Positions 1 through 11,289 of a stretch of DNA of 58,751 bases are shown here, one piece after another. A model generated the notes under the pieces. The model was not told the origin of the DNA, ran no database searches, and saw only the letters and a list, made by a program, of their open reading frames with translations. The stretch is from the IMG/VR virus record IMGVR_UViG_3300030104_001141, positions 1 to 58,751 of that record; one strand, written 5' to 3'. The translations under genes were made by a program, and so were the position numbers. The first letter of the stretch is position 1. Each line of letters starts with the position of its first letter. This stretch comes from a virus.

Positions 1-76
1 GGTAATCATCTAATAAATCCAGCAAAACTTTTTGTTGTTCTTCAGGCAACTTAGATAATTTTTCTAAATCAATCAA
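1..76 (-). CDS. terL: Terminase large subunit, N-terminal fragment (contig edge)
   Basis: This is the amino-terminal 25 codons of the same gene that is complete at 57166-58653, cut by the contig edge rather than by a real truncation. The start is TTG at 76-74, with AGGAGT eight bases upstream on the minus strand. It joins the full gene when the genome is circularised. Confidence 0.85.
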   Translation of the reverse strand, partial: MIDLEKLSKLPEEQQKVLLDLLDDY

Positions 77-174
77 GGTGTGGTACTCCTAAAGAAAACA
101 AAGTCAAATGGAGTGGAAACTTTGTTGGAGTTGTAAAGATAATATTAAGAGCACCACAAAACCTTTCTAGTTTA
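1..174. repeat. Near-identical terminal repeat, left copy
   Basis: This segment matches 58578-58751 over its whole length with four substitutions (positions 78, 94, 96 and 143 against 58655, 58671, 58673 and 58720). It holds the first 25 codons of terL, its leader and the first operator of the array at 167. The simplest reading is a circular or circularly permuted genome whose contig ends were not trimmed, with the mismatches reflecting population variation. A true terminal repeat with divergent copies is less likely. Confidence 0.9.
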
Positions 175-253
175 ATACTAGGTTCTAGTATAGAACTATA
201 TATAAATCTTAGTTTAATACTAGCTAGTGTTCTAATAGCTAGTTTTATACTAG
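167..253. promoter_or_regulatory. Tandem 15-bp CTAGT-type operator array A
   Basis: Five adjacent palindrome-like 15-mers lie here: CTAGTTTAATACTAG at 167-181, a perfect inverted repeat GTTCTAGTATAGAAC at 182-196, a CTTAGTTTAATACTAG variant at 208-223, CTAGTGTTCTAATAG at 224-238 and CTAGTTTTATACTAG at 239-253. The last recurs exactly at 13116-13130. The array sits between the LexA-like gene and terL, both leftward, so it probably controls the packaging/late operon through a phage repressor. The binding protein is unknown; the winged-helix protein at 289 and the ribbon-helix-helix protein at 10611 are candidates. The rest of the 77-288 gap holds an 8-bp inverted repeat (97-104 with 119-126) in the terL leader and nothing else I can name. 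Confidence 0.75.
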
Positions 254-288
254 GTAAACCGATAAATCTCCCTATTTTGTACATAGTT

Positions 289-543
289 TCATATCTTCAC
301 TTGTTCGTCAATACTTTTATTGATGTTTTTAAACGGGCTATTTCTCGTACTCATAACTGTACGCCATCTGTTAGGTTGCATGGTAACCCATCCTGCTTCT
401 TCTAATCTTTTAATCATAGCGTGTACTGTACTCTTAGATGATACTCCTATAGCTTCTGCTATGCCTTGTAGTGTTGGTCCACAGCTATACTGTTCCCAAT
501 GACTCTCAATTGCTTCTAATACTAATAACTGTCTTTTTGTCAT
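289..543 (-). CDS. LexA-like winged-helix regulator (DNA-binding domain only)
   Basis: This 84-residue protein resembles the N-terminal DNA-binding domain of LexA: a first helix (TKRQLLVLEAIESHW), the spaced GPTLQGIAEAIGVSS helix-turn-helix, then KSTVHAMIKRLEEAGWV and a short wing. The self-cleaving protease domain of full LexA is absent, so it cannot be removed by RecA-stimulated autoproteolysis as LexA is. The start at 543 was chosen because AGGAG lies five bases upstream; the longer reading has no such site. A LexA-type box overlapping a -10 lies 31 bp upstream, which suggests autoregulation or control by host LexA. The gene lies between terS and terL, so it may time packaging and late expression. 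Confidence 0.8.
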   Translation of the reverse strand: MTKRQLLVLEAIESHWEQYSCGPTLQGIAEAIGVSSKSTVHAMIKRLEEAGWVTMQPNRWRTVMSTRNSPFKNINKSIDEQVKI

Positions 544-573
544 ATATACTCCTATGGGGTCTAGGGGACCCAT

Positions 574-588
574 GAACATTATACGAAC
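574..588 (-). promoter_or_regulatory. LexA/SOS box GTTC-N7-GTTC with embedded -10
   Basis: On the minus strand this reads GTTC-GTATAAT-GTTC, a perfect match to the direct-repeat SOS box of alphaproteobacteria. The seven-base spacer contains TATAAT, so a bound repressor would cover the -10 of the promoter for the LexA-like gene. The corresponding -35 (TAGATT at 17 bp) is weak. Confidence 0.8.
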
Positions 589-635
589 ATTCTAAAAAAA
601 AATCTACCTGTAAGTGGGTCGAAGAAAAAAATAGA

Positions 636-739
636 CCCCCCCCTATGCAATTATGAAAAATATAAAATTGTTTGTGTAAAACAGTGTGTATAGGGAGTCT
701 GTCGAAAATTTTATATAGGTGGGGTGGGTATGGGTGGGG
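636..739. other. C8 tract and G-quadruplex-prone sequence beside terS
   Basis: A run of eight C occurs at 636-643. At 721-739 the plus strand has four G tracts (GGGG, GGG, GGG, GGGG) with loops of 1, 3 and 1 bases, an ideal short-loop G-quadruplex pattern. Both stand out in an AT-rich genome. The segment lies just downstream of the terS stop codon, where a packaging (pac/cos) site could plausibly be; that role is a guess. Confidence 0.55.
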
Positions 740-754
740 TAAAACAATAGTGCA

Positions 755-1234
755 TTATTTATTATCAGTTGCAAAGAGTTCATGTATTTTCTGTTCCAGT
801 TCCAGTTTAATCTCATCACTGGTCTTGTTACTGCTAGTTGTCTCAACCCTATCAGTAAAGAGTGCCACCTCAGATATCTTTCCTATTAACTCAAGGCTAC
901 GAATCCTTGCTGACTCATTGTTGTTAATATCCTTTGCTTCTTTGATTAACTGGTCTGTAACAAACTGTCTTAGAGAGAGTGATGTACTAACTGAATACTG
1001 CTCTTTTCTCTTGAACCCTGCCTTGACCCTTTGGGAAACCTTAGGGTGGCTCATAAGGACACTAGCTTCTCTCCAAACGCTACTATCTTTCATGTTCTTT
1101 GTGTTGTATGAATTGCGATATGATTCACTAGCAGTCATACCTGATAATACACCTTGTACAAACTTCTCTTGCTTAGGTGTTAATCCATCTATATTAGTTA
1201 CCTTGTTCTTGTCCTTGTCTTTGATTTTGCTCAT
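755..1234 (-). CDS. terS: Terminase small subunit
   Basis: This 159-residue protein has the terminase small-subunit signature near residues 18-70: LTPKQEKFVQ, then ASESYRNSY, then W.EAS.L..HPKV..RV. That segment is the helix-turn-helix DNA-recognition domain that selects the viral genome for packaging. A helical C-terminal part follows that should oligomerise. After circularisation it lies two genes upstream of terL in the same direction, with only the LexA-like gene between. A TATTAA-N4-TTAATA palindrome lies just upstream (1243-1258). Confidence 0.85.
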   Translation of the reverse strand: MSKIKDKDKNKVTNIDGLTPKQEKFVQGVLSGMTASESYRNSYNTKNMKDSSVWREASVLMSHPKVSQRVKAGFKRKEQYSVSTSLSLRQFVTDQLIKEAKDINNNESARIRSLELIGKISEVALFTDRVETTSSNKTSDEIKLELEQKIHELFATDNK

Positions 1235-1895
1235 ATCCTATCTATTAACCTATTAATATTTGATTTAATTTATATGGATGACTTCCTATGTCATCTATGC
1301 CTAAACCCCTTTATACGCTTACTTCGTAAGCAACACAAGTTCCGGAATGAACATAAGGCGTAAAGAAATATCATTTTATTTATCACAAACACTTGCAATT
1401 GTGGGGTAATCCATGTTTATAATACCCTGTCGTTTGGGATTGTCGTTGAAAAACCCCTTTCCAAACACGCCCTAGTGGGACACTCATTGTCCCCATGAGA
1501 GCCGGTCGCAAGGACTTGGTTCGAGGGTTCAAGCCTAGAGCCTGAATCGACACATGGGACATAATCGAGAAGAGGTAACCTGAAAATCCTCACCACGAAA
1601 AATCCGGACTTCATGTTTTTGAGAGTTTATTCAGGGTTGAGAGAGTGTTGTCTCATTGAGAACGATTCTGTCCATTAGCGAATGTCCTAGCAAGACTAAA
1701 GGTTTGGGTGGTTTCCGGAGAGTTGAGATTCCCACAGAACACAAAACTCAAGAATATCAATATGTGCTAAGGCTATGCTGGTGATGAACCGGTGTGTAAC
1801 TTGCTTGTCTCTAGGGACTAAACTTGTGAGTGTGTAAAGTAGCTAATCCCAAAGTGATAAGTCTAGGTAATAATTTAATTTTATGGAGAAAATTT
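1235..1895. other. Gene-free, GC-rich divergent region
   Basis: I see no credible gene in these 660 bp between terS (leftward) and the first early gene (rightward). The core, about 1400-1830, is clearly richer in G+C than the flanks. Visible hairpins include 1274-1298 (9-bp stem), 1317-1331 (GCTTAC/GTAAGC), 1477-1493 (GGGACA/TGTCCC) and a longer inverted repeat pairing 1488-1497 with 1553-1561. It must carry divergent promoters; a structured RNA or origin is possible. No tRNA passes a cloverleaf check by eye. The last 37 bases up to 1900 duplicate 2238-2274, the leader behind the first hammerhead. Confidence 0.5.
1243..1258. repeat. TATTAA-N4-TTAATA palindrome, copy 1
   Basis: Perfect copy with centre CCTA, immediately upstream of the terS ribosome binding site. 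Confidence 0.7.
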
Positions 1896-2177
1896 ATGAA
1901 TAAAATAAAAGCATTGTTGAGTTTGGTTGAATGTGAGATGAAAAGATATTATGACCCCTTTTGGAGTGATGGTAAGGATGTAATCCTTGATGATATCGCC
2001 AGTATTTTGGAGATAGCATCATTACTTTCTAGTGCCAAAGTTAGCAAGAAAGCGTTGAAATCGCATTTCAATACGCTTGATACTGAATTGAGAGACACGA
2101 TTTCATGTTTCTTAAAAAATGAAGATAACATTCATCAAGCCATGTATGAGTGTGGATATATCGTTATTTCTGAATAA
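1896..2177 (+). CDS. Early hypothetical protein
   Basis: This 93-residue, mostly helical protein of no recognised family is the first gene of the rightward early operon. The start at 1896 follows GGAG by seven bases; an in-frame upstream start at 1830 has no such site. It is followed directly by a hammerhead ribozyme that begins one base after the stop codon, so its transcript should be cut from the downstream message. Residues 60-90 contain a short Cys-bearing segment but no metal-binding pattern. Confidence 0.7.
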   Translation: MNKIKALLSLVECEMKRYYDPFWSDGKDVILDDIASILEIASLLSSAKVSKKALKSHFNTLDTELRDTISCFLKNEDNIHQAMYECGYIVISE

Positions 2178-2242
2178 ACCTACTGATGAGCAACACTGAA
2201 AGGTGGCGAAACTTAAGGCTCTTTTGAGCCTTTTGTTTAGGT
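2178..2242 (+). ncRNA. Type I hammerhead ribozyme 1
   Basis: All conserved parts are present in order: stem I strand ACCTA (2178-2182), core CTGATGA (2183-2189), stem II (2190-2207), GAAA (2208-2211), stem III (2212-2235, loop TTTT, one tandem U-U mismatch), UU cleavage dinucleotide (2236-2237) and TAGGT (2238-2242) closing stem I. Self-cleavage is predicted after 2237, releasing the following gene with a 5' leader starting TAGGTAATAA. The first 38 bases are identical to ribozyme 2, whereas stem III differs in sequence but stays paired. Confidence 0.88.
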
Positions 2243-2269
2243 AATAATTTAATTTTATGGAGAAAATTT

Positions 2270-2593
2270 ATGAAAGCAGAAAAAATAATTGAGCATATCA
2301 CTAAATCTTTTAACAAATATCTTGATGAAAGTGGGATGGAAGAACTTATTCCAAACCATAAAAAAGATGCTTGGAAAGATTTGATTATTAGAGAATCTGA
2401 AGAAGAAAATGAAGTGGTTGAGATACTATATGATGGTGGCTACTGTTACGACATGATTAACGAAACATGGGATGAGTGTGGTGGATATACAAACTGGGAA
2501 ACTGCTGAAATGCTATTTGGTTTGAAATCCTTAGAGAAAAAAGGACATGAAGCTGAACCTTATGCATCATGGAAAATATCTGTTTATGCTTGA
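2270..2593 (+). CDS. Early hypothetical protein between two ribozymes
   Basis: This 107-residue acidic protein matches no family I recognise. Visible features are an N-terminal amphipathic helix (KIIEHITKSFNKYL) and a Tyr/Trp/Cys-rich middle around residues 65-85. Its leader is identical over 37 bases to that of the preceding gene, including the ribosome binding site GGAG. It is bracketed by hammerheads 1 and 2, so its mRNA should be excised as a single-gene transcript of about 420 nt. Confidence 0.75.
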   Translation: MKAEKIIEHITKSFNKYLDESGMEELIPNHKKDAWKDLIIRESEEENEVVEILYDGGYCYDMINETWDECGGYTNWETAEMLFGLKSLEKKGHEAEPYASWKISVYA

Positions 2594-2597
2594 TAAA

Positions 2598-2662
2598 ACC
2601 TACTGATGAGCAACACTGAAAGGTGGCGAAACTTGGGACTTTCCGGAGTCCCAATTCTAGGT
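2598..2662 (+). ncRNA. Type I hammerhead ribozyme 2
   Basis: Stem I ACCTA (2598-2602), CTGATGA (2603-2609), stem II (2610-2627), GAAA (2628-2631), stem III with eight consecutive pairs (2633-2640 with 2647-2654), UC at the cleavage site (2656-2657) and TAGGT (2658-2662). Cleavage is predicted after 2657. One C-U mismatch sits at the inner end of stem III. Compared with ribozyme 1, stem III has changed on both strands with pairing kept, which is good evidence for selection on structure. Confidence 0.87.
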
Positions 2663-2697
2663 AATAAACATTAACCAATTAATAGATAGGAGAAAAT

Positions 2698-2886
2698 ATG
2701 AATAAACCTGAAGCAAATAAACTTTACGCCTTAACTGGTGGGACTGGAGAGCCTTGTATTGCAAATGGCAACACTTGGGCAGAAAGTGAAGTTAAACCTA
2801 AATGTAATCGCTGTGGTGTTGTTGTCTTTCCTGAAGATGATAACTGTTGTGATAGATGTTTAGAATTGTCTTTTAACGAGGAGTAA
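2698..2886 (+). CDS. Small zinc-ribbon protein
   Basis: This 62-residue protein has two Cys pairs (CNRCG near residues 36-39 and CCDRC near residues 50-54), a likely zinc ribbon. AGGAG precedes the start. Its N-terminus (MNKPEAN) resembles that of the gene at 3070 (MNEPEAN), so the two may be distant duplicates. The leader follows ribozyme 2 and contains a near-copy of the TATTAA palindrome (2669-2684). Function is unknown; a nucleic-acid-binding or host-takeover role is possible. Confidence 0.7.
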   Translation: MNKPEANKLYALTGGTGEPCIANGNTWAESEVKPKCNRCGVVVFPEDDNCCDRCLELSFNEE

Positions 2887-2888
2887 AT

Positions 2889-3077
2889 ATGACAGAATTT
2901 AATCAAGAAAAATACCTGAAAAAATGCTTGAAAGAAGCAAGAGGAAAATTAGCGTATGCAGTTATGAATGATATGTCTGATGTTGTAATTGAGAGTTGTG
3001 AAGATTCTTGTAAAAGACTTGCTACAGCATTAGAAGATGTTAGATACGAAAAAAAATATGGGAGTGATTATGAATGA
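2889..3077 (+). CDS. Small early hypothetical protein
   Basis: This 62-residue, predicted all-helical protein has three Cys residues (lysine-rich N-terminal half, acidic middle) and no recognised family. It starts three bases after the zinc-ribbon gene, with GAGGAG upstream, and overlaps the next gene by eight bases, so the three genes are translationally linked. Confidence 0.65.
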   Translation: MTEFNQEKYLKKCLKEARGKLAYAVMNDMSDVVIESCEDSCKRLATALEDVRYEKKYGSDYE

Positions 3078-3228
3078 ACCTGAAGCAAATAACGAATCAG
3101 TAAAAATAACCTGTGAAGAATGTTATGGAAGTGGCGTATCAAGAACTATTAATGGAGATATGGGAGTTGATAATTGTTGGTGTTGTGATGGATATGGATA
3201 TTATAGAGAATATTACACTAAGGAGTGA
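3070..3228 (+). CDS. Small DnaJ-type zinc-finger protein
   Basis: This 52-residue protein is built around two CxxCxGxG-like motifs (CEECYGSG and CWCCDGYG), the repeat used by the DnaJ central zinc domain. The J-domain is absent, so it is not a full co-chaperone. The start at 3070 has GGAG six bases upstream and overlaps the previous gene. A zinc-binding adaptor role is inferred only from the motif. Confidence 0.7.
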   Translation: MNEPEANNESVKITCEECYGSGVSRTINGDMGVDNCWCCDGYGYYREYYTKE

Positions 3229-3230
3229 TT

Positions 3231-3359
3231 ATGAATAAATCAAAAAGAAAAGTGGTGGTAAATAAAAAAGATAAATTGATATCTATGAAAATTTACAAGC
3301 CAAAAGTAAAAAAGAAAACAGCATTTCAAGTAGCTTTTGAAAATGCTAAGGGTGTATAG
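3231..3359 (+). CDS. Small basic peptide
   Basis: This 42-residue, strongly basic reading frame starts two bases after the preceding stop, with AAGGAG at the right distance. The N-terminal 30 residues are Lys-rich (KSKRK, KPKVKKK), and the end (FQVAFENAKGV) is less charged. Function is unknown. It is the last gene before the structured leader of the AAA+ gene. Confidence 0.6.
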   Translation: MNKSKRKVVVNKKDKLISMKIYKPKVKKKTAFQVAFENAKGV

Positions 3360-3371
3360 GTAAATTTACCA

Positions 3372-3407
3372 GTGGTTTGGCTAGTACCACATACCTTAAA
3401 ACTAGCC
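3372..3407 (+). ncRNA. H-type pseudoknot in the leader of the AAA+ gene
   Basis: GTGGT (3372-3376) pairs with ACCAC (3386-3390), and GGCTAG inside that loop (3379-3384) pairs with CTAGCC (3402-3407) across an A-rich linker. This is a compact H-type pseudoknot, the fold class used by several small riboswitches and by exonuclease-blocking RNAs. It does not match the preQ1 or SAM-II consensus that I know. It lies just upstream of the hammerhead-like element at 3417. Confidence 0.55.
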
Positions 3408-3416
3408 ATCTAATTT

Positions 3417-3471
3417 TGACTATCGTATAGGAATAGTACCTATGCCTGAATGAGTAACTGCGAAATAGTCA
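3417..3471 (+). ncRNA. Hammerhead-like element, type III arrangement, non-canonical core
   Basis: Stem III TGACTA (3417-3422) pairs with TAGTCA (3466-3471); UC cleavage site (3423-3424); stem I of seven pairs (3425-3431 with 3439-3445); core CTGAATGA (3446-3453), which carries one extra A against CTGATGA; a very short stem II (3454-3461); GAAA (3462-3465). Everything but the inserted A and the two-pair stem II fits a hammerhead opening at stem III. Activity is uncertain. It sits 34 bases upstream of the next gene, as the other ribozymes do. Confidence 0.55.
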
Positions 3472-3504
3472 TTTCAGTTTTATTAATCGCAAAATGGAGT
3501 AAAT

Positions 3505-4488
3505 ATGAAAGCGAAACAATTAGAAAAATCACTTTCGACTCTAATATCTATCAAGCAACCATCATTTATTTGGGGTGGCGTTGGTATTGGTAAATCAGAA
3601 ATTATCCACAAAGTTGGAGAATCTTTGGGTTATCAAATAAGAGATGTTAGGGTTTCACTACTTGACCCTGTGGACTTAAGGGGTATTCCTAGCGTAGAAA
3701 ATGGAACTACTGTTTGGAATCCACCTGTCTTTTTACCTACTGAAGATGAGCCAAAAACATTACTATTCCTAGATGAGTTACCTCATGGGAGTCCTAGTGT
3801 TCAAAATGCATTATTTCAGTTAGTTAAAGATAGGCAATTGGGTGAGTATAAATTACCTGATTCGACAGTCATTGTCAGTGCTGGTAATAGGTTACAAGAT
3901 AAAGCCGGTGCGAATAGGGTTAATACAGCATTGGGAGATAGATTTATTCATTTAGATTTTGAACCTTGTCCTGATGAGTGGATTGCATGGGCAAAATCAA
4001 GTGGAAAGATTATGCCTGAAATCATAGCGTATATGAGATATAGACCGGAGAATTTATTTGTATTTGATAAAAATGCAAGAGTAAATACTACGCCTAGAAG
4101 TTGGGAATATGCTTCAAGGATTATGTCTGAATGTCCTGATTCTGATATTGAGCATGAGTTACTTTCCGGAACTATTGGAGAGGGTGTGAGTGCTGAATTG
4201 ATAGGTTTCTTGAGAACTGTTAGAGGTTTACCATCACTTGATAAAATCTTGAATGACCCTGAGAGCCTTGATACTGAATCTGACCCTGCGATTCTTTATG
4301 CGATTACAAGCATAATTGCTAGGAAGATGGATAAGACAAACATTGATAAGTTTGTAAAATACTTGGACACATTACCTGATGAGTTCGCTATTTTATGTAT
4401 GACTGATGCAGTGGAATCGAATCCTGACATTAGAAAAACCAAAGCGTTTATTAATTTTGATATCAAGCATCAAGACATTACGCTTTAA
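3505..4488 (+). CDS. MoxR-type AAA+ ATPase
   Basis: This 327-residue AAA+ ATPase has Walker A GGVGIGKS (residues 24-31), Walker B LLFLDE (D90, E91), a sensor-1 Asn near 128 (SAGNR) and a downstream LGDRF segment that may carry the arginine finger. Overall it resembles MoxR/AAA_5 proteins, which remodel partner proteins and usually work with a VWA-domain protein. Exactly such a partner lies two genes downstream (5467), with a DUF3150-like gene between. GGAG precedes the start. Its leader carries the pseudoknot and hammerhead-like element, and a hammerhead follows its stop codon, so its message may be processed at both ends. Confidence 0.85.
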   Translation: MKAKQLEKSLSTLISIKQPSFIWGGVGIGKSEIIHKVGESLGYQIRDVRVSLLDPVDLRGIPSVENGTTVWNPPVFLPTEDEPKTLLFLDELPHGSPSVQNALFQLVKDRQLGEYKLPDSTVIVSAGNRLQDKAGANRVNTALGDRFIHLDFEPCPDEWIAWAKSSGKIMPEIIAYMRYRPENLFVFDKNARVNTTPRSWEYASRIMSECPDSDIEHELLSGTIGEGVSAELIGFLRTVRGLPSLDKILNDPESLDTESDPAILYAITSIIARKMDKTNIDKFVKYLDTLPDEFAILCMTDAVESNPDIRKTKAFINFDIKHQDITL

Positions 4489-4549
4489 ACCGACTGATGA
4501 TTAGTTGAGATGCTATGAAAACATCCCATGTATTTGGGATGTTATTGGT
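4489..4549 (+). ncRNA. Type I hammerhead ribozyme 3
   Basis: Stem I ACCGA (4489-4493), CTGATGA (4494-4500), stem II (4501-4516, outer U-U), GAAA (4517-4520), stem III of eight perfect pairs (4521-4528 with 4535-4542), UA cleavage site (4543-4544), TTGGT (4545-4549) closing stem I with one G-U pair. It begins at the base after the AAA+ stop codon. Cleavage is predicted after 4544. Its sequence outside the catalytic core is unrelated to ribozymes 1 and 2, so it is not a recent copy. Confidence 0.85.
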
Positions 4550-4552
4550 AAC

Positions 4553-4574
4553 AAGTATTAACTGATTAATACTT
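4553..4574. repeat. TATTAA-N4-TTAATA palindrome, copy 2 (extended)
   Basis: Perfect copy with nine-base arms (AAGTATTAA and TTAATACTT) around CTGA. It lies between ribozyme 3 and the start of the next gene. Confidence 0.75.
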
Positions 4575-4591
4575 AAACATGGAGAAATATT

Positions 4592-5467
4592 ATGGCAGTA
4601 GCCCTAAATGAAAAAGCCATGCTCATCAAAGTTGAACTCAAGAAATGGGGTGGAACTAAAACTGATAAATCCTTATCAGAAAAAATTGGATATGATTCTA
4701 ATACTGATGCAAGTTTGTATTCAGTATCAAAGAAACTAACCAATTCCACCACGCTGAAAGAGATTAAAAAAATTGATGGATTGATAAGAACTGACTGCAT
4801 CTATTCCGGTGCTGGTTATAGAGGTTTTTGTCATGCATGGGATAATAATGGAAACTATCTATTACCTATTGATGCAAAAGATAGGTTTGAGAAAAGGTTT
4901 TCATCTTATAGAGATGATAGAGAGAAATTGGTAAAACAATTTGTTTCTGAATATCCGGATATCATCAAAGATGCACAAAGAGAATTTGGTGCAAATTTCA
5001 AAGCAGATGATTTTCCACATGAAACTGAAATTGGCGAATGTTTTTCTTGCGAAGTAATCAAGAATGTAGTTCCCTCTACTGATGATATTAGAATTAATTT
5101 ATCAAAAGATGAGATTGATGAACTAAAAGCAAATGCCAAAAAGCAAGAAAATGAAAGAGTAGAAAAGATTACTTCAGATGTTGTTGATAAAATGACTGGA
5201 GTTCTTGGACATCTTGCAGAAAGAATCAATGATGGTGAGACCTTTAGAGATTCTACACTTGATAAGGTTATTGATTTGTGCGAAACAATACCGGCATTGA
5301 ATGTTGGTGGTGATGCAAAAATTCATAAGGCTCATCAAGACTTGATGGACATATTTGCCGGTAATGATATTACTGCTGAATCATTAAGAGATGATAAAGA
5401 CAAGGCTAAAGAAATTGCTAAAAAGTCTGAGGAAATCATTGATGATTTAGAGGGATGGTTAGACTAA
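4592..5467 (+). CDS. DUF3150-like partner of the AAA+/VWA pair
   Basis: This 291-residue protein sits between a MoxR ATPase and a VWA protein, where DUF3150-type proteins are found in other phages. It has a globular first half containing conserved-looking aromatic segments (YSGAGYRGFCHAW near 69-81) and a long helical C-terminal half (residues 165-291), probably coiled coil. GGAG lies upstream. The stop codon overlaps the start of the next gene (TAATG), indicating tight coupling. The family call comes from context and general appearance. Confidence 0.65.
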   Translation: MAVALNEKAMLIKVELKKWGGTKTDKSLSEKIGYDSNTDASLYSVSKKLTNSTTLKEIKKIDGLIRTDCIYSGAGYRGFCHAWDNNGNYLLPIDAKDRFEKRFSSYRDDREKLVKQFVSEYPDIIKDAQREFGANFKADDFPHETEIGECFSCEVIKNVVPSTDDIRINLSKDEIDELKANAKKQENERVEKITSDVVDKMTGVLGHLAERINDGETFRDSTLDKVIDLCETIPALNVGGDAKIHKAHQDLMDIFAGNDITAESLRDDKDKAKEIAKKSEEIIDDLEGWLD

Positions 5468-6573
5468 TGATAATACAAGAAATGACTAAAGCTAGAACTG
5501 AACTTATTATCAAACATCCTTTTTTTGGCAAACTTGCTTTAGGTATGAAAATCGTTGAAAGAGATGATATTGATACAATGGCAGTAGATGGTACTCACCT
5601 GTTCTATAACAAAGAATGGGTGTTAGGTATCACTCATCAAGAAAGAGTTGGTGTAATTGCTCACGAAGTCTTACACATTGTTTTCAAGCATCACTTGAGG
5701 AGAAAAGATAGGTGTCCACATTACTGGAATATTGCCGGTGATTATGTAATCAATGCTATTTTGTTTGAGCATGGATTTATACTACCTGATGGTGGTTTGT
5801 TTGATACAAAGTATGCTAAATGGAAAACTGAATCTGTCTACAAAGAAGTCTTTAAAAATAAAGAGCATGATGATGTCCAAACAGTTGGAGAAGTTATTGA
5901 TGCTACTGGTGAAGATGGTAAAGAACTTACTGAATCAGAACTTCAAGAGATGGAAAAAGAAATCACTGTTCAAGTTTTACAAGCTGAACAAAGTGCTAAA
6001 GGTATGGGTAAAGGTGGAGATGCTACAAAAGGTATGTTAGATATCGTGAAAGAGCAATCTGTTTCTTGGGATGATGTGTTGGCTAACTTAGTGTTGGACA
6101 AAGTAGAAACCAATGATTATAACTTCAATAATGTAAATAGAAGATTTGTACATCAAAATCTTTACTTACCTAGTTGTGAAAAGAAACCTAGTGCAAAAGG
6201 TGTTATTGCTTTAGATATTAGTGGTTCAATCTGTCGTGAAGATATGGCTATGATGCAAGATGCAGTAAACAATATTGTTCCTGTTGCAAACTTCGAGGAA
6301 CTTACAGTTCTTTATTGTGATGATGCAGTTAGGCGTATTGATACTTTTGATGCTAACGAGGAAGTAGAACTTACTTATATGAGTGGGGGTGGTACTGACT
6401 ATGAGCCTGTTATCAAATACATAGACAAAGAACTTGATAATGATATTGCGTTTCTTATCTACCTGACTGATGGATATTGTTATCCATGTAGTGAGCCTGA
6501 CTATCCGGTGATATGGGCAACCACTATGACATCACAATTCTTTAAATTTGGAGATATAGTTGAAGTTGCTTAA
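5467..6573 (+). CDS. Metallopeptidase-like/VWA protein, partner of MoxR
   Basis: This 368-residue protein has a zincin motif HEVLH (H66-H70) near the N-terminus and a VWA-type domain in the C-terminal third with the MIDAS sequence DISGS (D250, S252, S254). This two-part layout is that of DUF2201-type putative metallopeptidases, which pair with MoxR ATPases. The start at 5467 was chosen because it overlaps the upstream stop as TAATG. The triad resembles a chaperone/chelatase-like machine; its target in phage infection is unknown. Confidence 0.82.
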   Translation: MIIQEMTKARTELIIKHPFFGKLALGMKIVERDDIDTMAVDGTHLFYNKEWVLGITHQERVGVIAHEVLHIVFKHHLRRKDRCPHYWNIAGDYVINAILFEHGFILPDGGLFDTKYAKWKTESVYKEVFKNKEHDDVQTVGEVIDATGEDGKELTESELQEMEKEITVQVLQAEQSAKGMGKGGDATKGMLDIVKEQSVSWDDVLANLVLDKVETNDYNFNNVNRRFVHQNLYLPSCEKKPSAKGVIALDISGSICREDMAMMQDAVNNIVPVANFEELTVLYCDDAVRRIDTFDANEEVELTYMSGGGTDYEPVIKYIDKELDNDIAFLIYLTDGYCYPCSEPDYPVIWATTMTSQFFKFGDIVEVA

Positions 6574-6615
6574 CTTCAAGTAGGGCAGTTTGCTTGTTCT
6601 GTTTTAAAAACAAGC
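6560..6615 (+). other. Two consecutive hairpins after the VWA gene
   Basis: An 8-bp stem with a GCTT loop (6560-6579) spans the VWA stop codon, followed by a 7-bp stem GCTTGTT/AACAAGC (6592-6615). Neither has a following T tract, so they are poor terminators. They occupy the position filled by hammerheads at earlier junctions and may be processing or stability elements. Confidence 0.45.
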
Positions 6616-6618
6616 ATC

Positions 6619-6634
6619 TATTAACCAATTAATA
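6619..6634. repeat. TATTAA-N4-TTAATA palindrome, copy 3
   Basis: Perfect copy with centre CCAA, just upstream of the ribosome binding site of the gene at 6648. Confidence 0.7.
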
Positions 6635-6647
6635 CTTAGGAGTGAGT

Positions 6648-6839
6648 ATGAGTAAACCAAAAACAAAACAAACATTTATCTATTTAGGTGGATTAAGAAA
6701 AGCCTTTTCAGATTTAGACAATGCTATACCTGATAGTGCTTTTGAATATGACTTAGACCAATCAATGATTAATGATGTATGGAATGAAATAAGTGTAGTT
6801 GAAAAACAAATTGATGATGGAGTATTCAATGAAAAATAA
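6648..6839 (+). CDS. Small early hypothetical protein
   Basis: This 63-residue acidic protein matches no family I know. The ATG at 6648 follows AGGAG by five bases and is preferred over an in-frame GTG two codons upstream. Its end overlaps the next gene by 11 bases. It opens a second series of small genes after the two hairpins. Confidence 0.65.
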   Translation: MSKPKTKQTFIYLGGLRKAFSDLDNAIPDSAFEYDLDQSMINDVWNEISVVEKQIDDGVFNEK

Positions 6840-7008
6840 TATTTATACAAAAGACTACAAAGATATTAAAAGTATTTTTGAGAACTTTTGGAAACAAACA
6901 AACATAAGTAGAAATGAACCTTATATGTATATGTTTTCAAACAAAAAAACCAATAAAGATTACTTTAAACATTCTCTAACAAGAGAATATGTAGAGGTGG
7001 AAAGCTAA
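6829..7008 (+). CDS. Small early hypothetical protein
   Basis: This 59-residue protein is rich in Lys, Asn, Tyr and Phe and of unknown function. The start at 6829 has GGAG six bases upstream, inside the preceding gene. Its stop overlaps the next start as TAATG, so it is coupled to the ADP-ribosyltransferase-like gene. Confidence 0.6.
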   Translation: MKNNIYTKDYKDIKSIFENFWKQTNISRNEPYMYMFSNKKTNKDYFKHSLTREYVEVES

Positions 7009-7679
7009 TGGAAAAACATTACTTAGAACAAGAAGCCGAAAGATATATCAAGGAAAGAGAAGATGAACTTAAATATCCTGTAAAAGATTACAACCAAAAA
7101 AAGGTAACCTTATATCATGGAACATCTACTAAATATCTTGATGATATTTTAAAGCAAGGTATCAAACCTAGATATGAAAAAGAAAGTATTTGGGAAGATA
7201 ATCCTAGTAGACCTGACATGGTTTACTTATCTAGTGCTTATGCAGTTTACTTTTCTCAAGTTGCATCACACAAATTAGGTGGCAAACCTGTAGTATTTGA
7301 AGTAAAAGTAAATACTAAAAGTTTATATCCTGATGAAGATTTTCTTGAGCAAATTACAAGAGTTGACCCTGCATGGAAAGATACTTTGTCTCTTGGCATG
7401 GAAGAAAGAACTGCATGGTTCAAAAAAAATATGCTTGATTACAAGACTGCTTACGCAGATAGTTTAGGTGCGTTAGGTAATGCCTGTCATAAAGGAATTA
7501 TCAAACCTAAAAACATTATCAGATACAGCATCTTAGATGAGTCAAAAATATTAGATTATTCAGACCCAACAATAACTTTAATGAACTATCAAATTTTGGG
7601 TGGCAGATATAGAAAGCTGTCTCAAAAAACTATGTGGGAAGAACCCCTATCTATAAAAACAAGGAGTAAAAATGGATAA
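7008..7679 (+). CDS. ADP-ribosyltransferase-like protein
   Basis: This 223-residue protein begins its core with VTLYHGTSTKYLDDILKQGI (H37), the opening strand and helix typical of the His-type ADP-ribosyltransferase fold (PARP, KptA and DarT-like groups). MVYLSSAYAVYFS (Y73-Y81) follows, a usual second motif, and then VVFEVKVN. The acidic third-motif residue cannot be fixed by eye. Such enzymes move ADP-ribose from NAD+ onto protein or nucleic acid and are common phage host-takeover or counter-defence factors. Its early position fits that role. A ribosome site and the TAATG overlap support the start. Confidence 0.65.
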   Translation: MEKHYLEQEAERYIKEREDELKYPVKDYNQKKVTLYHGTSTKYLDDILKQGIKPRYEKESIWEDNPSRPDMVYLSSAYAVYFSQVASHKLGGKPVVFEVKVNTKSLYPDEDFLEQITRVDPAWKDTLSLGMEERTAWFKKNMLDYKTAYADSLGALGNACHKGIIKPKNIIRYSILDESKILDYSDPTITLMNYQILGGRYRKLSQKTMWEEPLSIKTRSKNG

Positions 7680-7968
7680 ATTAACTATAAAAAACTGGGA
7701 TGAGCCTATTAATGAAAAGCAAATGGATTCTTTATGTGAGATATATGATTTGCTACTTAAGTTTAGGACTACTAATGGACATACTGTAATGTTTCCAAAC
7801 AACCCTGAAGATGAACTGCCTTTTATGTTATCTCTAATTAAAAAAGAATTAGAGATTTTAATTAAAAGATATATAGATGCTAATAACAAAGATGGTGCAT
7901 CAAATTATTTTAATAGAGAAAGATGCGAATATTATCTTTCTGAATCAATGGAAAATAAAAATGGATAA
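7672..7968 (+). CDS. Early hypothetical protein
   Basis: This 98-residue, mostly helical acidic protein is of unknown function. AAGGAG lies seven bases before the start, inside the end of the preceding gene, and the reading frames overlap by eight bases at both ends. No motif is recognisable beyond a probable two-helix hairpin in residues 50-95. Confidence 0.65.
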   Translation: MDKLTIKNWDEPINEKQMDSLCEIYDLLLKFRTTNGHTVMFPNNPEDELPFMLSLIKKELEILIKRYIDANNKDGASNYFNRERCEYYLSESMENKNG

Positions 7969-8104
7969 ATTAAAAAAAGAATGGAGAATATTTAAACAAG
8001 ATTTTCAAAGACAATGTAATGAAAGTTTTATGTTTAGATTTAATTGGTATGTACTAAAGCCTCTTGCTTTAGTGCTTGGAATAATAATTTTAATTATTTT
8101 ATAA
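7961..8104 (+). CDS. Small single-span membrane protein
   Basis: This 47-residue peptide has a basic N-terminal half (DKLKKEWRIFKQDFQRQ) and one C-terminal membrane segment (PLALVLGIIILIIL). Predicted topology is N-in with a cytoplasmic basic face. The start overlaps the previous gene's end. Small membrane peptides in early phage operons often act in superinfection exclusion or host membrane modification; that is only a suggestion. Confidence 0.6.
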   Translation: MDKLKKEWRIFKQDFQRQCNESFMFRFNWYVLKPLALVLGIIILIIL

Positions 8105-8113
8105 GGAGTGAGT

Positions 8114-8512
8114 ATGAATAAGATAAAAGAATTTGTTATCGACATATTAGATAGAAACAGATTAACAAAATCAATAATAGTATTTTGTTATGAGTTTTAT
8201 ATTTGGATAATAAAAAGACCCATGTTAGAACATACTGGAATAGATTTTGCTGGTGTTGAAGTGCCTGTAGTAGTTAATGAAAAAGAGTTTAACTTTAGTG
8301 GGCGTTGGATAGCTGACATGGAAATAACAGAAACTAGACCTTTATGGTATAGCTACAATGGTAAAAAAGAAAAAACAATAATTCGTATTCTTGCCAATAA
8401 AGAGATAGGTATTTTTACTATCTATAAACCTAAATGGTATAGAACTTTTTTAAACAAAAAAAATAAATTTAATAAATTATTAAGGAGAATAAATAATGTA
8501 TTTAGTAAATAA
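8114..8512 (+). CDS. Early hypothetical protein with N-terminal hydrophobic helix
   Basis: This 132-residue protein has a hydrophobic stretch near residues 20-35 (IIVFCYEFYIWII), a beta-rich middle and a basic C-terminus. The ATG at 8114 follows AGGAG by five bases; a GTG two codons earlier is less likely. It may be membrane-associated. No family is recognised. Its end overlaps the next gene by 17 bases. Confidence 0.6.
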   Translation: MNKIKEFVIDILDRNRLTKSIIVFCYEFYIWIIKRPMLEHTGIDFAGVEVPVVVNEKEFNFSGRWIADMEITETRPLWYSYNGKKEKTIIRILANKEIGIFTIYKPKWYRTFLNKKNKFNKLLRRINNVFSK

Positions 8513-8780
8513 AAATAACGACCTGTTGAATGATGTAAGAGAAAGTATTACTGAAATTTGTAATCATATCTATACAAAGATAGACAGAAAACCAAAGGAT
8601 AATTACGAAACAAAAGAAGAAGATTTACTTTTGTTAAAGTCTTTTAATACTTTTGTAACTATTAATCAGTTAATACTTGATAAGTTACATCCTGAAAGAA
8701 AGCAAATGAACCTGCCAAATCCAAAACATTTTGGTATCTCAAAGCATGGTGAAATTATAGAAGTAGAGGTAACTGCATAA
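8496..8780 (+). CDS. Early hypothetical protein
   Basis: This 94-residue protein of unknown function starts eight bases after AAGGAG. It is largely helical with a short C-terminal strand region. A perfect TATTAA-N4-TTAATA palindrome lies inside the coding sequence at 8660-8675. Its stop overlaps the next start as TAATG. Confidence 0.65.
   Translation: MYLVNKNNDLLNDVRESITEICNHIYTKIDRKPKDNYETKEEDLLLLKSFNTFVTINQLILDKLHPERKQMNLPNPKHFGISKHGEIIEVEVTA
8660..8675. repeat. TATTAA-N4-TTAATA palindrome, copy 4 (in coding sequence)
   Basis: Perfect copy with centre TCAG inside a gene, followed by the usual CTT extension. Its presence in coding DNA argues that the site binds something rather than only forming leader RNA. 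Confidence 0.65.
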
Positions 8781-9316
8781 TGAAAAAATTAGAAATCAAA
8801 ATAGAAGATGGTATTGAAAAACCTGATTATACCGGTAAGAATATTCTTACTGGCGAGACAATGAAATCTCTTAGAGATATGAAAGCCGGACAAAGTTTTA
8901 CTGTCAAAACAGAATCCCACAAACTTACAGTGCAATTGTATGGTAGAAAAATAGGTAAGGTATTTTCCTCAAGAAAAATATACGAGGGAAATACCAAAGG
9001 AAAAAATACACCATATCATTTTAGAATATGGTGTGAGAGTGGCAAGGCAAAACCTCTACCATCAAGTAAACCACCTAGTGAAAATCCCAAACTTAAATCT
9101 TTTGGTTCTATATCAAAGACACAAGTATCTGATGATGGAGATGGAGATGCTACTACAAGACATAGAGTATCTGATGATGTTCTAGCTATGGCAGAATTGA
9201 GAGCAGACAACAAAAGAATTGTAGAAGATTTAGATAAAATCAAACAGATTTTAAAAGAAGAATTGAAGCATGATATGGAAACATTTAAACCTTTAAATGA
9301 AGATGCCTCTAACTGA
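8780..9316 (+). CDS. Phage hypothetical protein with DUF7303-like half
   Basis: This 178-residue protein has a beta-rich N-terminal half with the pattern SLRDMKAGQSF...RKIGKVFSSRK...FRIW, similar in outline to the small protein at 13487 (ELEVNESF...FSITTREVDEGIRVWRV), so the two may share a fold. The C-terminal part is a Ser/Pro/Asp-rich linker followed by a probable coiled coil (residues 130-165). Its role is unknown; small phage proteins of this type often sit among replication genes. Confidence 0.6.
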   Translation: MKKLEIKIEDGIEKPDYTGKNILTGETMKSLRDMKAGQSFTVKTESHKLTVQLYGRKIGKVFSSRKIYEGNTKGKNTPYHFRIWCESGKAKPLPSSKPPSENPKLKSFGSISKTQVSDDGDGDATTRHRVSDDVLAMAELRADNKRIVEDLDKIKQILKEELKHDMETFKPLNEDASN

Positions 9317-9334
9317 AATCAATTTTAAAAGGGG

Positions 9335-9409
9335 GGTAATTTGGGAGATGCTAGACCCTTACCTGCTATCAGAAAATGCAACAGCGAGGCTTACATGAGC
9401 CTAATTTTT
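9335..9409 (+). other. Structured leader with terminator-like hairpin
   Basis: This is within a 120-bp gap. GGTAA (9335-9339) and GGG (9343-9345) pair with CCC and TTACC (9356-9363) around a ten-base loop. Downstream, AGGCT/AGCCT (9387-9402) is followed by AATTTTT, a weak intrinsic terminator shape. The order structured element, terminator-like hairpin, gene suggests attenuation. It matches no riboswitch class I know. Confidence 0.4.
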
Positions 9410-9436
9410 AAAAATATTTATAAAAAAGGAGTAAAA

Positions 9437-9592
9437 ATGGATAAACAAGAACTAATCAGACAATTAGAACAGATTATGGAGAATGTTGAATCTGACTTTA
9501 AGAAACAAAAATCTTTGTTACAAGAAATGCAAGACAAAGTATTTGTATTAAGAATAGAAACCAATGATTTAATCAAGGAGTTAAAACAATGA
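9437..9592 (+). CDS. Small coiled-coil protein
   Basis: This 51-residue protein appears to be one continuous amphipathic helix, probably a coiled coil. The start at 9437 follows AAGGAG; an in-frame upstream start at 9341 would place the structured leader inside the gene and has no ribosome site. It overlaps the next gene as ATGA. Confidence 0.6.
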   Translation: MDKQELIRQLEQIMENVESDFKKQKSLLQEMQDKVFVLRIETNDLIKELKQ

Positions 9593-10182
9593 GTGCAAAA
9601 GCAAAGTTTGTATATGCAAAACCTTTTATTACACATGAAAAATTTGGTATTGAAAAAGTTATAAAGCATGACCAAGTTTATGGATGGAAAGATAGATTGA
9701 TTGATGCTAAATTTATTCAACCTTTTAGAGATTATGATTTTTATAATAGTGATTTTACAGTTGAAAAAAGTTATGCAGAAATGGTAAATATTTTTGGCAA
9801 ACCAATTAAAGTAACTGGTAAGTTTGAAGATGCGAAATGTTTTTATTCTTTTAGTAATGAAATGTCTTGGACTGTAGATGCTGTTTGGTATTTACTTTTG
9901 CAAGACCAAAGCTATAGAGGAAAGAAAATAGAAGTGCCTGTTATTATATACAATTTAAATGGTGGTAAAAATTACAATAGATTTTATGACAAGGCTAGAG
10001 CAGAAAATTTAGTTGAAGATTTTGGCGATAGGTTTCCCAAAGCATATAGAATGAATAACAAGTTATCCAATGTAAATTGTTGGAATATTATAATTGGTAG
10101 TCAATGGAAATCTACTGAACATGAAAGAACTACACCTGAGAATCAATTGTATATAAAAAATTTAATTAATTTAGGAGTATAA
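9589..10182 (+). CDS. Early hypothetical protein
   Basis: This 197-residue protein matches no family I recognise. It is aromatic-rich, with segments such as SWTVDAVWYLLL (residues 92-103) and a Gly/Asn/Tyr-rich turn (NLNGGKNYNRFYDKARAE). It starts by ATGA overlap with the coiled-coil peptide. Its size and mixed alpha/beta look suggest a single globular enzyme or binding domain. Confidence 0.6.
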   Translation: MSAKAKFVYAKPFITHEKFGIEKVIKHDQVYGWKDRLIDAKFIQPFRDYDFYNSDFTVEKSYAEMVNIFGKPIKVTGKFEDAKCFYSFSNEMSWTVDAVWYLLLQDQSYRGKKIEVPVIIYNLNGGKNYNRFYDKARAENLVEDFGDRFPKAYRMNNKLSNVNCWNIIIGSQWKSTEHERTTPENQLYIKNLINLGV

Positions 10183-10185
10183 ATA

Positions 10186-10374
10186 ATGGCAAATTATTCA
10201 ACAAGAGTAATAGTAACTTTAGATTTTGACCACATACCTGAAAGGGAAGAAATCGAAAATACACTATTAGATATAATAAAAGAGAATGAGTTGGTTTACG
10301 AAACTGCAATTAGTCCTGTAGATAAACCTCTTGTTTCAATCAAAGCAAGATTATTTAACAAGGAGTATTTATGA
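10186..10374 (+). CDS. Small early hypothetical protein
   Basis: This 62-residue protein has a predicted beta-alpha-beta layout (TRVIVTLDFDHI, EREEIENTLLDIIKE, VSIKARLF). TTAGGAG precedes the start, and its end overlaps the next gene as ATGA-type coupling. Function is unknown. Confidence 0.6.
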   Translation: MANYSTRVIVTLDFDHIPEREEIENTLLDIIKENELVYETAISPVDKPLVSIKARLFNKEYL

Positions 10375-10601
10375 GTAACAACAAACACAAAAATTGTTTA
10401 CATAGAATAATAACTTTTGATAAAGATATGCAAACAGTTTGTGGAGACTGTGGAGATTTGTTTTCTCTTGTAGTAAATGAAGAACAAGATGAAGTCTATT
10501 TTGAAATACTACATGAAGAAGATGATGGAACTTATACAGCGTTTCATAGAAGTTATGAAGAACAAACAAGATTATTTAACGAAATATCGAACATACATTA
10601 A
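10371..10601 (+). CDS. Small early hypothetical protein with CxxC
   Basis: This 76-residue acidic protein has one CGDCG motif (residues 24-28) and an isolated upstream Cys/His pair (CLHR), so a small metal-binding ribbon is possible. AAGGAG lies upstream. The acidic C-terminal half could mimic DNA, but nothing in the sequence proves it. Confidence 0.55.
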   Translation: MSNNKHKNCLHRIITFDKDMQTVCGDCGDLFSLVVNEEQDEVYFEILHEEDDGTYTAFHRSYEEQTRLFNEISNIH

Positions 10602-10610
10602 GGAGTAAAA

Positions 10611-10796
10611 ATGAAATCAACAGTAAAATTTAATACAAAACCAAAACCAAAGACCGGATATGTTACAACCCGTATGCCTGATACTTTACGAGAATCAATA
10701 CAAGAAGTAGCAAATGAGAATAGAAGAAGTCTATCCTCACAAATAGTCTTTATGCTTGAACAACAGATTCAACAGCGTTCAAGCAACAATCCTTAG
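10611..10796 (+). CDS. Arc-like ribbon-helix-helix DNA-binding protein
   Basis: This 61-residue protein has the ribbon-helix-helix pattern: a short strand (GYVTTRMP), helix 1 (DTLRESIQEVANENRR) and helix 2 (SLSSQIVFMLEQQIQQ). Such proteins dimerise through the strand, which reads the DNA groove, and act as repressors. It is a candidate for binding the CTAGT arrays or the TATTAA palindromes. AAGGAG precedes the start. It is the last gene of the rightward early operon and converges on the leftward gene at 10750, overlapping it by 47 bases. Confidence 0.75.
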   Translation: MKSTVKFNTKPKPKTGYVTTRMPDTLRESIQEVANENRRSLSSQIVFMLEQQIQQRSSNNP

Positions 10797-11289
10797 AGTT
10801 CTCACTCTTTTTTCTATACAAGCGTTCAGATATTGCATTTAGTCCCAATTTTAAGAGGTGCAATTCCTGTTCGCTTGTTATAGATTTATTAAAACAAACA
10901 ACATTGATAAGAAAATCCGGCAAACCTACTGATGTGTTGCGACCCCCCTGAGTTCTTAAAATTTTTGTAATCCTTGTAAGAACAAGTGCTTTCAAAGATT
11001 TATGTGAAGAAGTATTAGCCAATCCACCATCCTGAAATGTAGCAATAAGGTTTACTGATGATGGAAATATCCCTGACTGGGATGCTAACTTATATATAAA
11101 TTCACCTGCGTTATGTTGTTTCTCATCTATTAACGAGTTAATAAATAACTTATCTATAACGAGTTGGTTCTTAATTCGTGTTCTAAAAATTCCTTTCCCC
11201 AAACTTTCTAACTCACAATCAAAATGTGAGTGAAGTTCCTTTGTTCCTAAATCTGTAGGATTAAAATTCCCAATCGTATTCTTCCCCAT
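10750..11289 (-). CDS. Hypothetical protein downstream of primase-helicase
   Basis: This 179-residue protein has no family that I recognise. A mainly helical core is seen around residues 60-165. The start at 11289 is chosen because GAGG lies six bases upstream; an ATG four codons earlier (11301) is weaker. It begins 29 bases inside the primase-helicase gene and is presumably translated with it, so a replication accessory or loader role is reasonable. A TATTAA palindrome lies inside it (11128-11143). Confidence 0.65.
   Translation of the reverse strand: MGKNTIGNFNPTDLGTKELHSHFDCELESLGKGIFRTRIKNQLVIDKLFINSLIDEKQHNAGEFIYKLASQSGIFPSSVNLIATFQDGGLANTSSHKSLKALVLTRITKILRTQGGRNTSVGLPDFLINVVCFNKSITSEQELHLLKLGLNAISERLYRKKSENSKDCCLNAVESVVQA
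10795..10813 (+). terminator. Weak intrinsic terminator of the early operon
   Basis: AGAGT and ACTCT form a five-pair stem with a TCTC loop, followed by T6. It overlaps the stop codon of the ribbon-helix-helix gene. The stem is short, so it would be leaky, but it is the only candidate between the convergent units. Confidence 0.4.
11128..11143. repeat. TATTAA-N4-TTAATA palindrome, copy 5 (in coding sequence)
   Basis: Perfect copy with centre CGAG inside the leftward gene at 10750-11289. Confidence 0.6.

Follow-up and report, generated by a model that had tools for sequence, protein, structure and literature searches.

The locus examined here raises the question of whether a phage can divide one operon transcript into separate messages by means of ribozymes placed at the ends of its genes. 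The window, i.e. the whole stretch of 58,751 nt that was analysed (IMG/VR record IMGVR_UViG_3300030104_001141), carries a rightward operon in which an earlier note had described two hammerhead ribozymes on either side of one gene. We asked whether these are hammerheads, how they are placed relative to the genes, and which role they would have in expression of the operon.

Phage context of the window

The terminase is closest to those of 023Pt_psg01, HTVC027P and DSL-LC04, with 55–58% identity, and the window therefore probably represents a marine podovirus-like phage of about 59 kb. Matches of the ATPase had suggested an N4-type phage, an idea that was dropped since the 2804-aa protein encoded at 17854–26268 (- strand) is no recognised virion RNA polymerase and the terminase is closest elsewhere. 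This large protein contains LPD38 and a zeta-toxin/kinase-like P-loop domain, and a 584-aa protein (35079–36833, - strand) is 35% identical to a protein of Pelagibacter phage HTVC008M annotated as adenylate/guanylyl cyclase. From its gene content and position the operon would be an early one. It is preceded by a structured RNA candidate of about 420 nt (1432–1854, + strand) with a long-range closing helix GGGATT/AATCCC, in which 26 of the 60 predicted pairs show changes on both sides in an alignment of 10 sequences; this candidate has no meaningful match in Rfam and is possibly more novel than the hammerheads. Just upstream of it is a perfect hairpin, GCTTAC-TTC-GTAAGC (1317–1331), identical in 13 of 13 aligned sequences, which may be a promoter or start element.

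Hammerheads in the window

Both elements of the earlier note are present in the sequence and contain CTGATGA, GAAA and the closing TAGGT (copies 1 and 2 in Table 1). They were said to share 38 bases; the first 37 bases are identical, and the run becomes 39 if the two preceding As are counted. Stem I is closed by ACCTA/TAGGT in both copies, and the stem III sequences differ and still pair, as had been pointed out. Two features near the core had gone unnoticed, namely tandem U.U mismatches in stem III of copy 1, and a C.U at 15.2/16.2 of copy 2 that adjoins the core. The two named elements are thus real, but a third hammerhead further downstream had been missed, and it scores highest of the three.

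Table 1. Hammerheads, stop codons, leaders, genes and predicted RNAs of the operon.
Feature	Position	Strand	Remarks
Gene upstream of copy 1	1896..2177	+	93 aa, without a family match
UAA stop codon, flush with stem I of copy 1	2175..2177	+	sequence
Copy 1, type I hammerhead, subtype A	2178..2242	+	R1 57.5 bits; hold-out R2 44.8 bits, E 9e-9
Leader after copy 1	2238..2269	+	AT-rich, with 5 nt of stem I and a GGAG ribosome site; start 32 nt from cut; no hairpin
Predicted released RNA	2238-2657	+	420 nt, holds gene 2270
Gene 2270, between the two subtype A hammerheads	2270..2593	+	107 aa, without a family match
UGA stop codon, 4 nt upstream of copy 2	2591..2593	+	sequence
Copy 2, type I hammerhead, subtype A	2598..2662	+	R1 61.5 bits; R2 50.3 bits, E 4e-10
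Leader after copy 2	2658..2697	+	AGGAG ribosome site; start 40 nt from cut; weak hairpin only
Predicted second released RNA	2658..4544	+	about five ORFs including the ATPase
MoxR-type AAA ATPase gene	3505..4488	+	327 aa; Pfam AAA_5, PHROG 1297
UAA stop codon of ATPase gene, flush with stem I of third element	4486..4488	+	sequence
Third element, type I hammerhead, subtype B (U10.1.U11.1)	4489..4549	+	R1 63.5 bits; R2 66.1 bits, E 5e-14
Leader after third element	4545..4591	+	9-bp hairpin 4553-4574; start 47 nt from cut

The three elements have three helices with stem I open, a pairing that is backed by covariation and by hold-out matches. The core C3 U4 G5 A6 N7 G8 A9 with G12 A13 A14 is complete in all of them, and so are the A15.1-U16.1 pair, which is A-U in 26 of 26 rows of alignment A1, and an H at position 17 (GUU, UUC and UUA; a U in copy 1). 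The 10.1-11.1 pair is G-C in copies 1 and 2 and U.U in the third element, as it is in all 14 distinct subtype B sequences. Cleavage is predicted after 2237 in copy 1 (GUU/UAGGU, the stroke marking the cut), after 2657 in copy 2 (UUC/UAGGU) and after 4544 in the third element (UUA/UUGGU); the first two sites had been placed by the earlier note at the positions expected of a hammerhead. The best folds forced into the hammerhead have -18.5, -16.2 and -16.6 kcal/mol against -19.9, -18.8 and -19.4 kcal/mol without constraint, i.e. a competing fold lies below by 1.4 to 2.8 kcal/mol in all three window copies, and over 49 subtype B elements the median of this gap is 0.0.

A strict descriptor matched three times in the window, compared with a mean of 0.025 and a maximum of 1 in 200 dinucleotide shuffles. 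Weak matches of a looser descriptor within genes at 3966 and 7326 were discarded, being absent from the searches with two covariance models, R1, which includes the elements of the window, and R2, a hold-out model built from 13 elements (alignment A5), none of them from the window or from its closest relative L001. R2 matches exactly the three hammerheads in the window, and its next match has an E-value of 2.3. The hold-out search, together with the covariation described below, strongly supports the identification as hammerheads that had been made from the letters of the two copies. A fourth hammerhead was considered near 1863–1870, where the sequence resembles a hammerhead product at the 3' end of the non-coding RNA, and was not supported, there being no match to the strict descriptor, R1 or R2; the leader shared at this place is explained by the cassette repeat (see below).

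The Rfam hammerhead models (release 15), proposed previously as a check, gave 0 matches in the window at the curated threshold, and 0 hammerhead matches at threshold in 20 relative loci. Below threshold, Hammerhead_3 reached 24.5 bits at 2145–2217 and RAGATH-1 (RF03152) 23.4 bits at 2573–2662 with a threshold of 56.3, and for the third element there was no hammerhead match in a permissive search. Since the hammerhead of phage PaP3 also fails, with 17.1 bits against a threshold of 48.5, the failure of Rfam in the window says little.

Hammerheads in related phage contigs

Relatives were gathered from viral contigs by protein and DNA patterns, and near-identical contigs were collapsed by flank. 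The descriptor scan yielded 66 elements with distinct flanks, representing 58 distinct ribozymes, and after all fetches the set comprised 110 elements from phage contigs; as related contigs are included, these counts are not independent events. Elements within about 45–130 nt of a contig end were dropped, as were those with a stem I shorter than 5 bp, except L062 in the first set and in the leader analyses, no exception being made in the set of 110. Three subtypes can be told apart by stem II, namely A with GCAACAC...GTGGC and an AA bulge, B with UUAGC...GCUAU and U.U at 10.1/11.1, and C for the remainder (33, 49 and 28 elements of the 110, respectively).

Alignment A1 holds 26 sequences, in which 95.4% of cells are paired compared with 62.0% in shuffles, and both positions have changed in 15 of the 17 pairs. 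Its covariation score of 0.845 compares with 0.212 for shuffled alignments and at most 0.146 for slid controls. As pairing is demanded by the descriptor itself, cores found without that demand were tested too, and of the matches of this core-only search the descriptor was satisfied by 30 of 34 in subtype A and by 17 of 18 in subtype B. The remaining four A matches close by eye with a stem III that is short (L039, L049 and L067) or long (L044), and the remaining B match sits at a contig end (L022). A wider set has stems I and III in 46 of 47 subtype B core matches, and the exception, record L103, still yields a model match at that place. The core pair 3-8 of subtype A is C-G in 27 cases and U-A in 3, and never mixed; natural U3-A8 in place of C3-G8 is seen in hammerheads of L004 (4774–4834) and L006 (4613–4674 and 4905–4965).

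R1 recognises one or more elements in 21 of 22 records and, in a second set, in 28 of 34, numbers that are no measure of prevalence since the IMG/VR records were chosen for a related gene or the core pattern. Six of the seven named phage records of the second set, which include HTVC023P and HTVC027P and comprise the nearest isolates by terminase, are without an R1 element, and R1 recovers the PaP3 hammerhead with an E-value of 6.5e-5. The subtype A pattern gave two matches in the cellular genome collection, both apparently by chance inside other sequence. One of the related records, L065, has an RT-2 RNA above the Rfam threshold at 6879–7100 (- strand).

A contact between loop I and loop II might involve the near-invariant A that precedes stem I and a UGARA-like loop II, neither of which is more than a candidate. 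An outer extension of stem I through the end of the upstream gene looked attractive in copies 1 and 2 and was rejected across 63 elements, where this helix has a mean of 4.44 bp against 4.28 bp with swapped downstream flanks, and 47 of 300 swaps were as high.

Position of the hammerheads at stop codons

The end of an ORF falls at the ribozyme or within it in 101 of the 110 elements, compared with 9.3% of random positions in the same loci; this count takes ORFs that have 40 codons or more, or that are truncated by the start of the contig, and places their end from -12 to +20 of the first stem I base. It had been noticed before that the two subtype A copies of the window start directly or a few bases after a stop codon, and this is borne out, copy 1 following TAA and copy 2 beginning 4 nt past TGA. 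The stop is flush with stem I in 43 of the 110 elements, and all 43 are UAA, a codon that makes up 52% of the long-ORF stops there. In another 36 the stop is located inside the ribozyme, as UGA in the core (14), as UAG in stem II of subtype B (15) or as UGA in loop II of subtype A (7). Immediately before stem I there is an A in 108 of 110 elements, against a background of 37%. TAA at -3 to -1 is missing from 27 of the 58 first-set elements, of which 20 keep the A at -1, and in six of the seven non-A cases stem I is extended by the -1 base, or the contig is one with a 6-bp stem I. We read this A, from the pattern of the sequences, as a structural base that a UAA stop may supply. Since the stop codon abuts the ribozyme or lies inside it, a terminating ribosome and the folded ribozyme should exclude each other.

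Leaders downstream of the predicted cut

The start codon of the next gene is located 15–86 nt past the predicted cut where a ribosome site was recognised. Many leaders begin with a hairpin, which under a criterion of at least 5 bp and a start within 3 nt of stem I is found after 58 of the 110 elements (38 of 49 in subtype B, 13 of 33 in A and 7 of 28 in C, where shuffled flanks predict 4.7, 4.0 and 2.3, respectively). It is flush with stem I in 50 of the 58, with 24 arm sequences and the pairing kept. Among the three leaders of the window a clear hairpin is present in the third only. Cleavage would leave the hairpin about 5 nt from the new 5' end. Protection of bacterial mRNAs by 5' stem-loops and 3' hairpins has been described (PMC7509114), and RNase E is reported to begin less well, in general, at a 5'-hydroxyl than at a 5'-monophosphate, though exceptions exist (PMC2948425).

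Operon layout and a gene cassette

Exactly one ORF is enclosed in 22 of 40 intervals between consecutive hammerheads of the relatives, counted mechanically for hammerheads at most 8 kb apart and ORFs of at least 30 aa; several of these intervals are homologous, and one, in L042, probably involves a false element and is yet counted among the 40. The bracketing of gene 2270 on which the earlier note was centred is thus real, and single-gene bracketing recurs, but it is neither ancestral nor general. Gene 1896 and the copy 1 hammerhead are absent from L001 and L011, where one leader copy remains, and in the window this unit of gene plus hammerhead is flanked by a 40-bp leader repeat with 98% identity (1861–1900 and 2235–2274), which looks like gain or loss of a cassette. 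Record L012 carries, at approximately 233–290, a homologue of gene 2270 followed by a long hairpin CCACGA...TCGTGG without a meaningful Rfam match; no hammerhead was found in this record, and the hairpin is possibly a different processing element.

Proposed processing and alternative explanations

Comparison between contigs establishes, at the level of sequence, that the elements exist, have a conserved fold, lie where genes end and are recurrently followed by a 5' hairpin. We consider it probable that the three type I hammerheads at gene boundaries divide the rightward phage operon transcript by self-cleavage. Speaking against this are the competing folds and the non-standard pairs of the window copies, the scores below threshold with Rfam, the lack of the element in the nearest isolates, the bracket of gene 2270 that is not conserved, and a clear hairpin in one leader of three. 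One long rightward transcript would be made across the operon, and each hammerhead would fold and undergo self-cleavage where H17 adjoins the 3' strand of stem I (at 2237, 2657 and 4544, the cut following each base), giving a one-gene mRNA (2238–2657) and a several-gene mRNA (2658–4544). The upstream product should retain the stop codon and terminate in the hairpin of stem III, which would carry a 2',3'-cyclic phosphate, while the downstream product should start with a 5'-OH and the five former stem I bases, often followed by a hairpin, and then by the ribosome site and start codon. When translation ends at a flush or internal stop, the ribosome would cover stem I and part of the core, and cleavage and termination would then compete; the stability of the mRNAs might also be affected. 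A further proposal is possible but doubtful, namely that the stop codon, built into the hammerhead as a flush UAA, as the UGA of the core or as the UAG of stem II, lets the arrival of the ribosome gate self-cleavage, that the cut gives the next gene a hairpin-capped, nuclease-resistant 5' end, and that the phage obtains a translation-responsive choice between polycistronic and single-gene messages.

Other explanations of the elements were considered. They might be 3'-end or terminator-like hairpins, with stem III acting as a terminator or as a block to 3' exonucleases and with cleavage secondary or lost. Stem III of copy 1 (2215–2232) and the T-rich stretch after it were called terminator-like, and mismatches near the core of copies 1 and 2 would agree with such a function, but a terminator needs neither CUGANGA, GAAA and A15.1-U16.1 nor a covarying stem I, all of which are kept in A1. 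Moreover, a terminator scan detected copy 1 only, with 5 sites against 5.2 expected in 1–11000, no T run follows the stem of the third element, and a GC-rich hairpin with a direct T run was not found above chance, which leaves this explanation quite improbable. The same mismatches, together with the competing folds, could be signs of decaying and inactive hammerhead remnants that are retained through linkage; this is very unlikely, as the core bases are intact in all three elements and the relatives show compensatory change and ordered placement.

It is improbable, too, that the elements serve as boundaries in the DNA, i.e. as repeats for gain and loss of cassettes by homologous recombination with the RNA activity being incidental. 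The absence of gene 1896 and copy 1 from L001 and L011, the repeat around this unit, and a subtype A core that is near-identical across unrelated contigs are what recombination could produce, but stems I and III vary freely with their pairing kept, and recombination repeats need no such pairing. Recombination and self-cleavage are, in addition, compatible with each other. Ends of the hammerhead type can be ligated, and with so many one-ORF intervals (22 of 40) the paired cuts might free an RNA for circular ligation or for use as a stable RNA instead of an mRNA. This is the case we regard as extremely unlikely, because the enclosed stretches are ORFs with ribosome sites, the window proteins searched gave no match to an RNA ligase, and Perreault et al. 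state for their hammerheads that ligated or circular products could not be detected (PMC3088659).

Comparison with known systems

Perreault et al. (2011) described clustered hammerheads of prophages and phages that flank single genes or short blocks, and proposed that a long phage transcript is processed into single-gene mRNAs (PMC3088659). According to this paper such hammerheads are active in cleavage, in vitro as well as in E. coli, and both the natural U3-A8 covariation and the U10.1-U11.1 mismatch were already reported there, the U-U at 10.1-11.1 as a variant found in nature that allows cleavage (PMC3088659). Neither the core idea nor the odd core features are therefore new, and a series of hammerheads punctuating an operon, which had been put forward for this locus as a distinct device, was described and proposed in 2011 (PMC3088659). 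The hammerheads of the window, three in number, resemble these clusters in the core, in being several and close together in one genome, in lying on the same strand and in their location around single genes or short blocks. Judged by the description in the paper, the elements collected here are set apart by forming a coherent type I set in phage contigs with a stem I of 5–6 bp and a near-invariant A 5' of it, with a stop codon that adjoins the ribozyme directly or lies within it, and frequently with a flush 5' hairpin after the cut. Neither the fusion with the stop codon nor the flush 5' hairpin was found described in the literature searched, which lies outside supplements and most subscription papers; neither ribozyme nor hammerhead occurs as a word in the main text of an article about HTVC023P-type pelagiphages (PMC9599517), and a review from 2017 still counts the role of hammerheads in prokaryotes among the open questions (PMC6155905).

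Phage PaP3 (NC_004466) has a type I hammerhead at 44036–44111 (minus strand), the one recovered by R1, which follows the end of orf67, whose UAA sits 1 nt before the paired part of stem I; it differs from the present elements in longer stems II and III. We presume this to be the PaP3 hammerhead that Perreault et al. list among active variants (PMC3088659). RAGATH-1 (RF03152), the best Rfam match of copy 2 though below threshold, has an upstream hairpin in its model that is matched in part. The RegB protein of phage T4 is an enzyme that cuts at ribosome sites and inactivates messages (PMC3014915). It is similar in that phage-directed cuts are made between early genes and leave 5'-OH and cyclic phosphate ends (PMC3014915), whereas here the RNA would cut itself, and upstream of the ribosome site.

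A version of the hammerhead that is common in marine phage contigs escapes the curated RNA models, and the numbers of hammerheads counted in viral data are thus probably too low. More than 100 comparable natural elements are now available with a fixed geometry of stop codon, cut and next start, and this geometry makes the release of single-gene mRNAs, the role of the stop codon in the fold and the protection by the 5' hairpin testable. The stop-codon-locked arrangement is a little-described and widespread version of an idea proposed in 2011.
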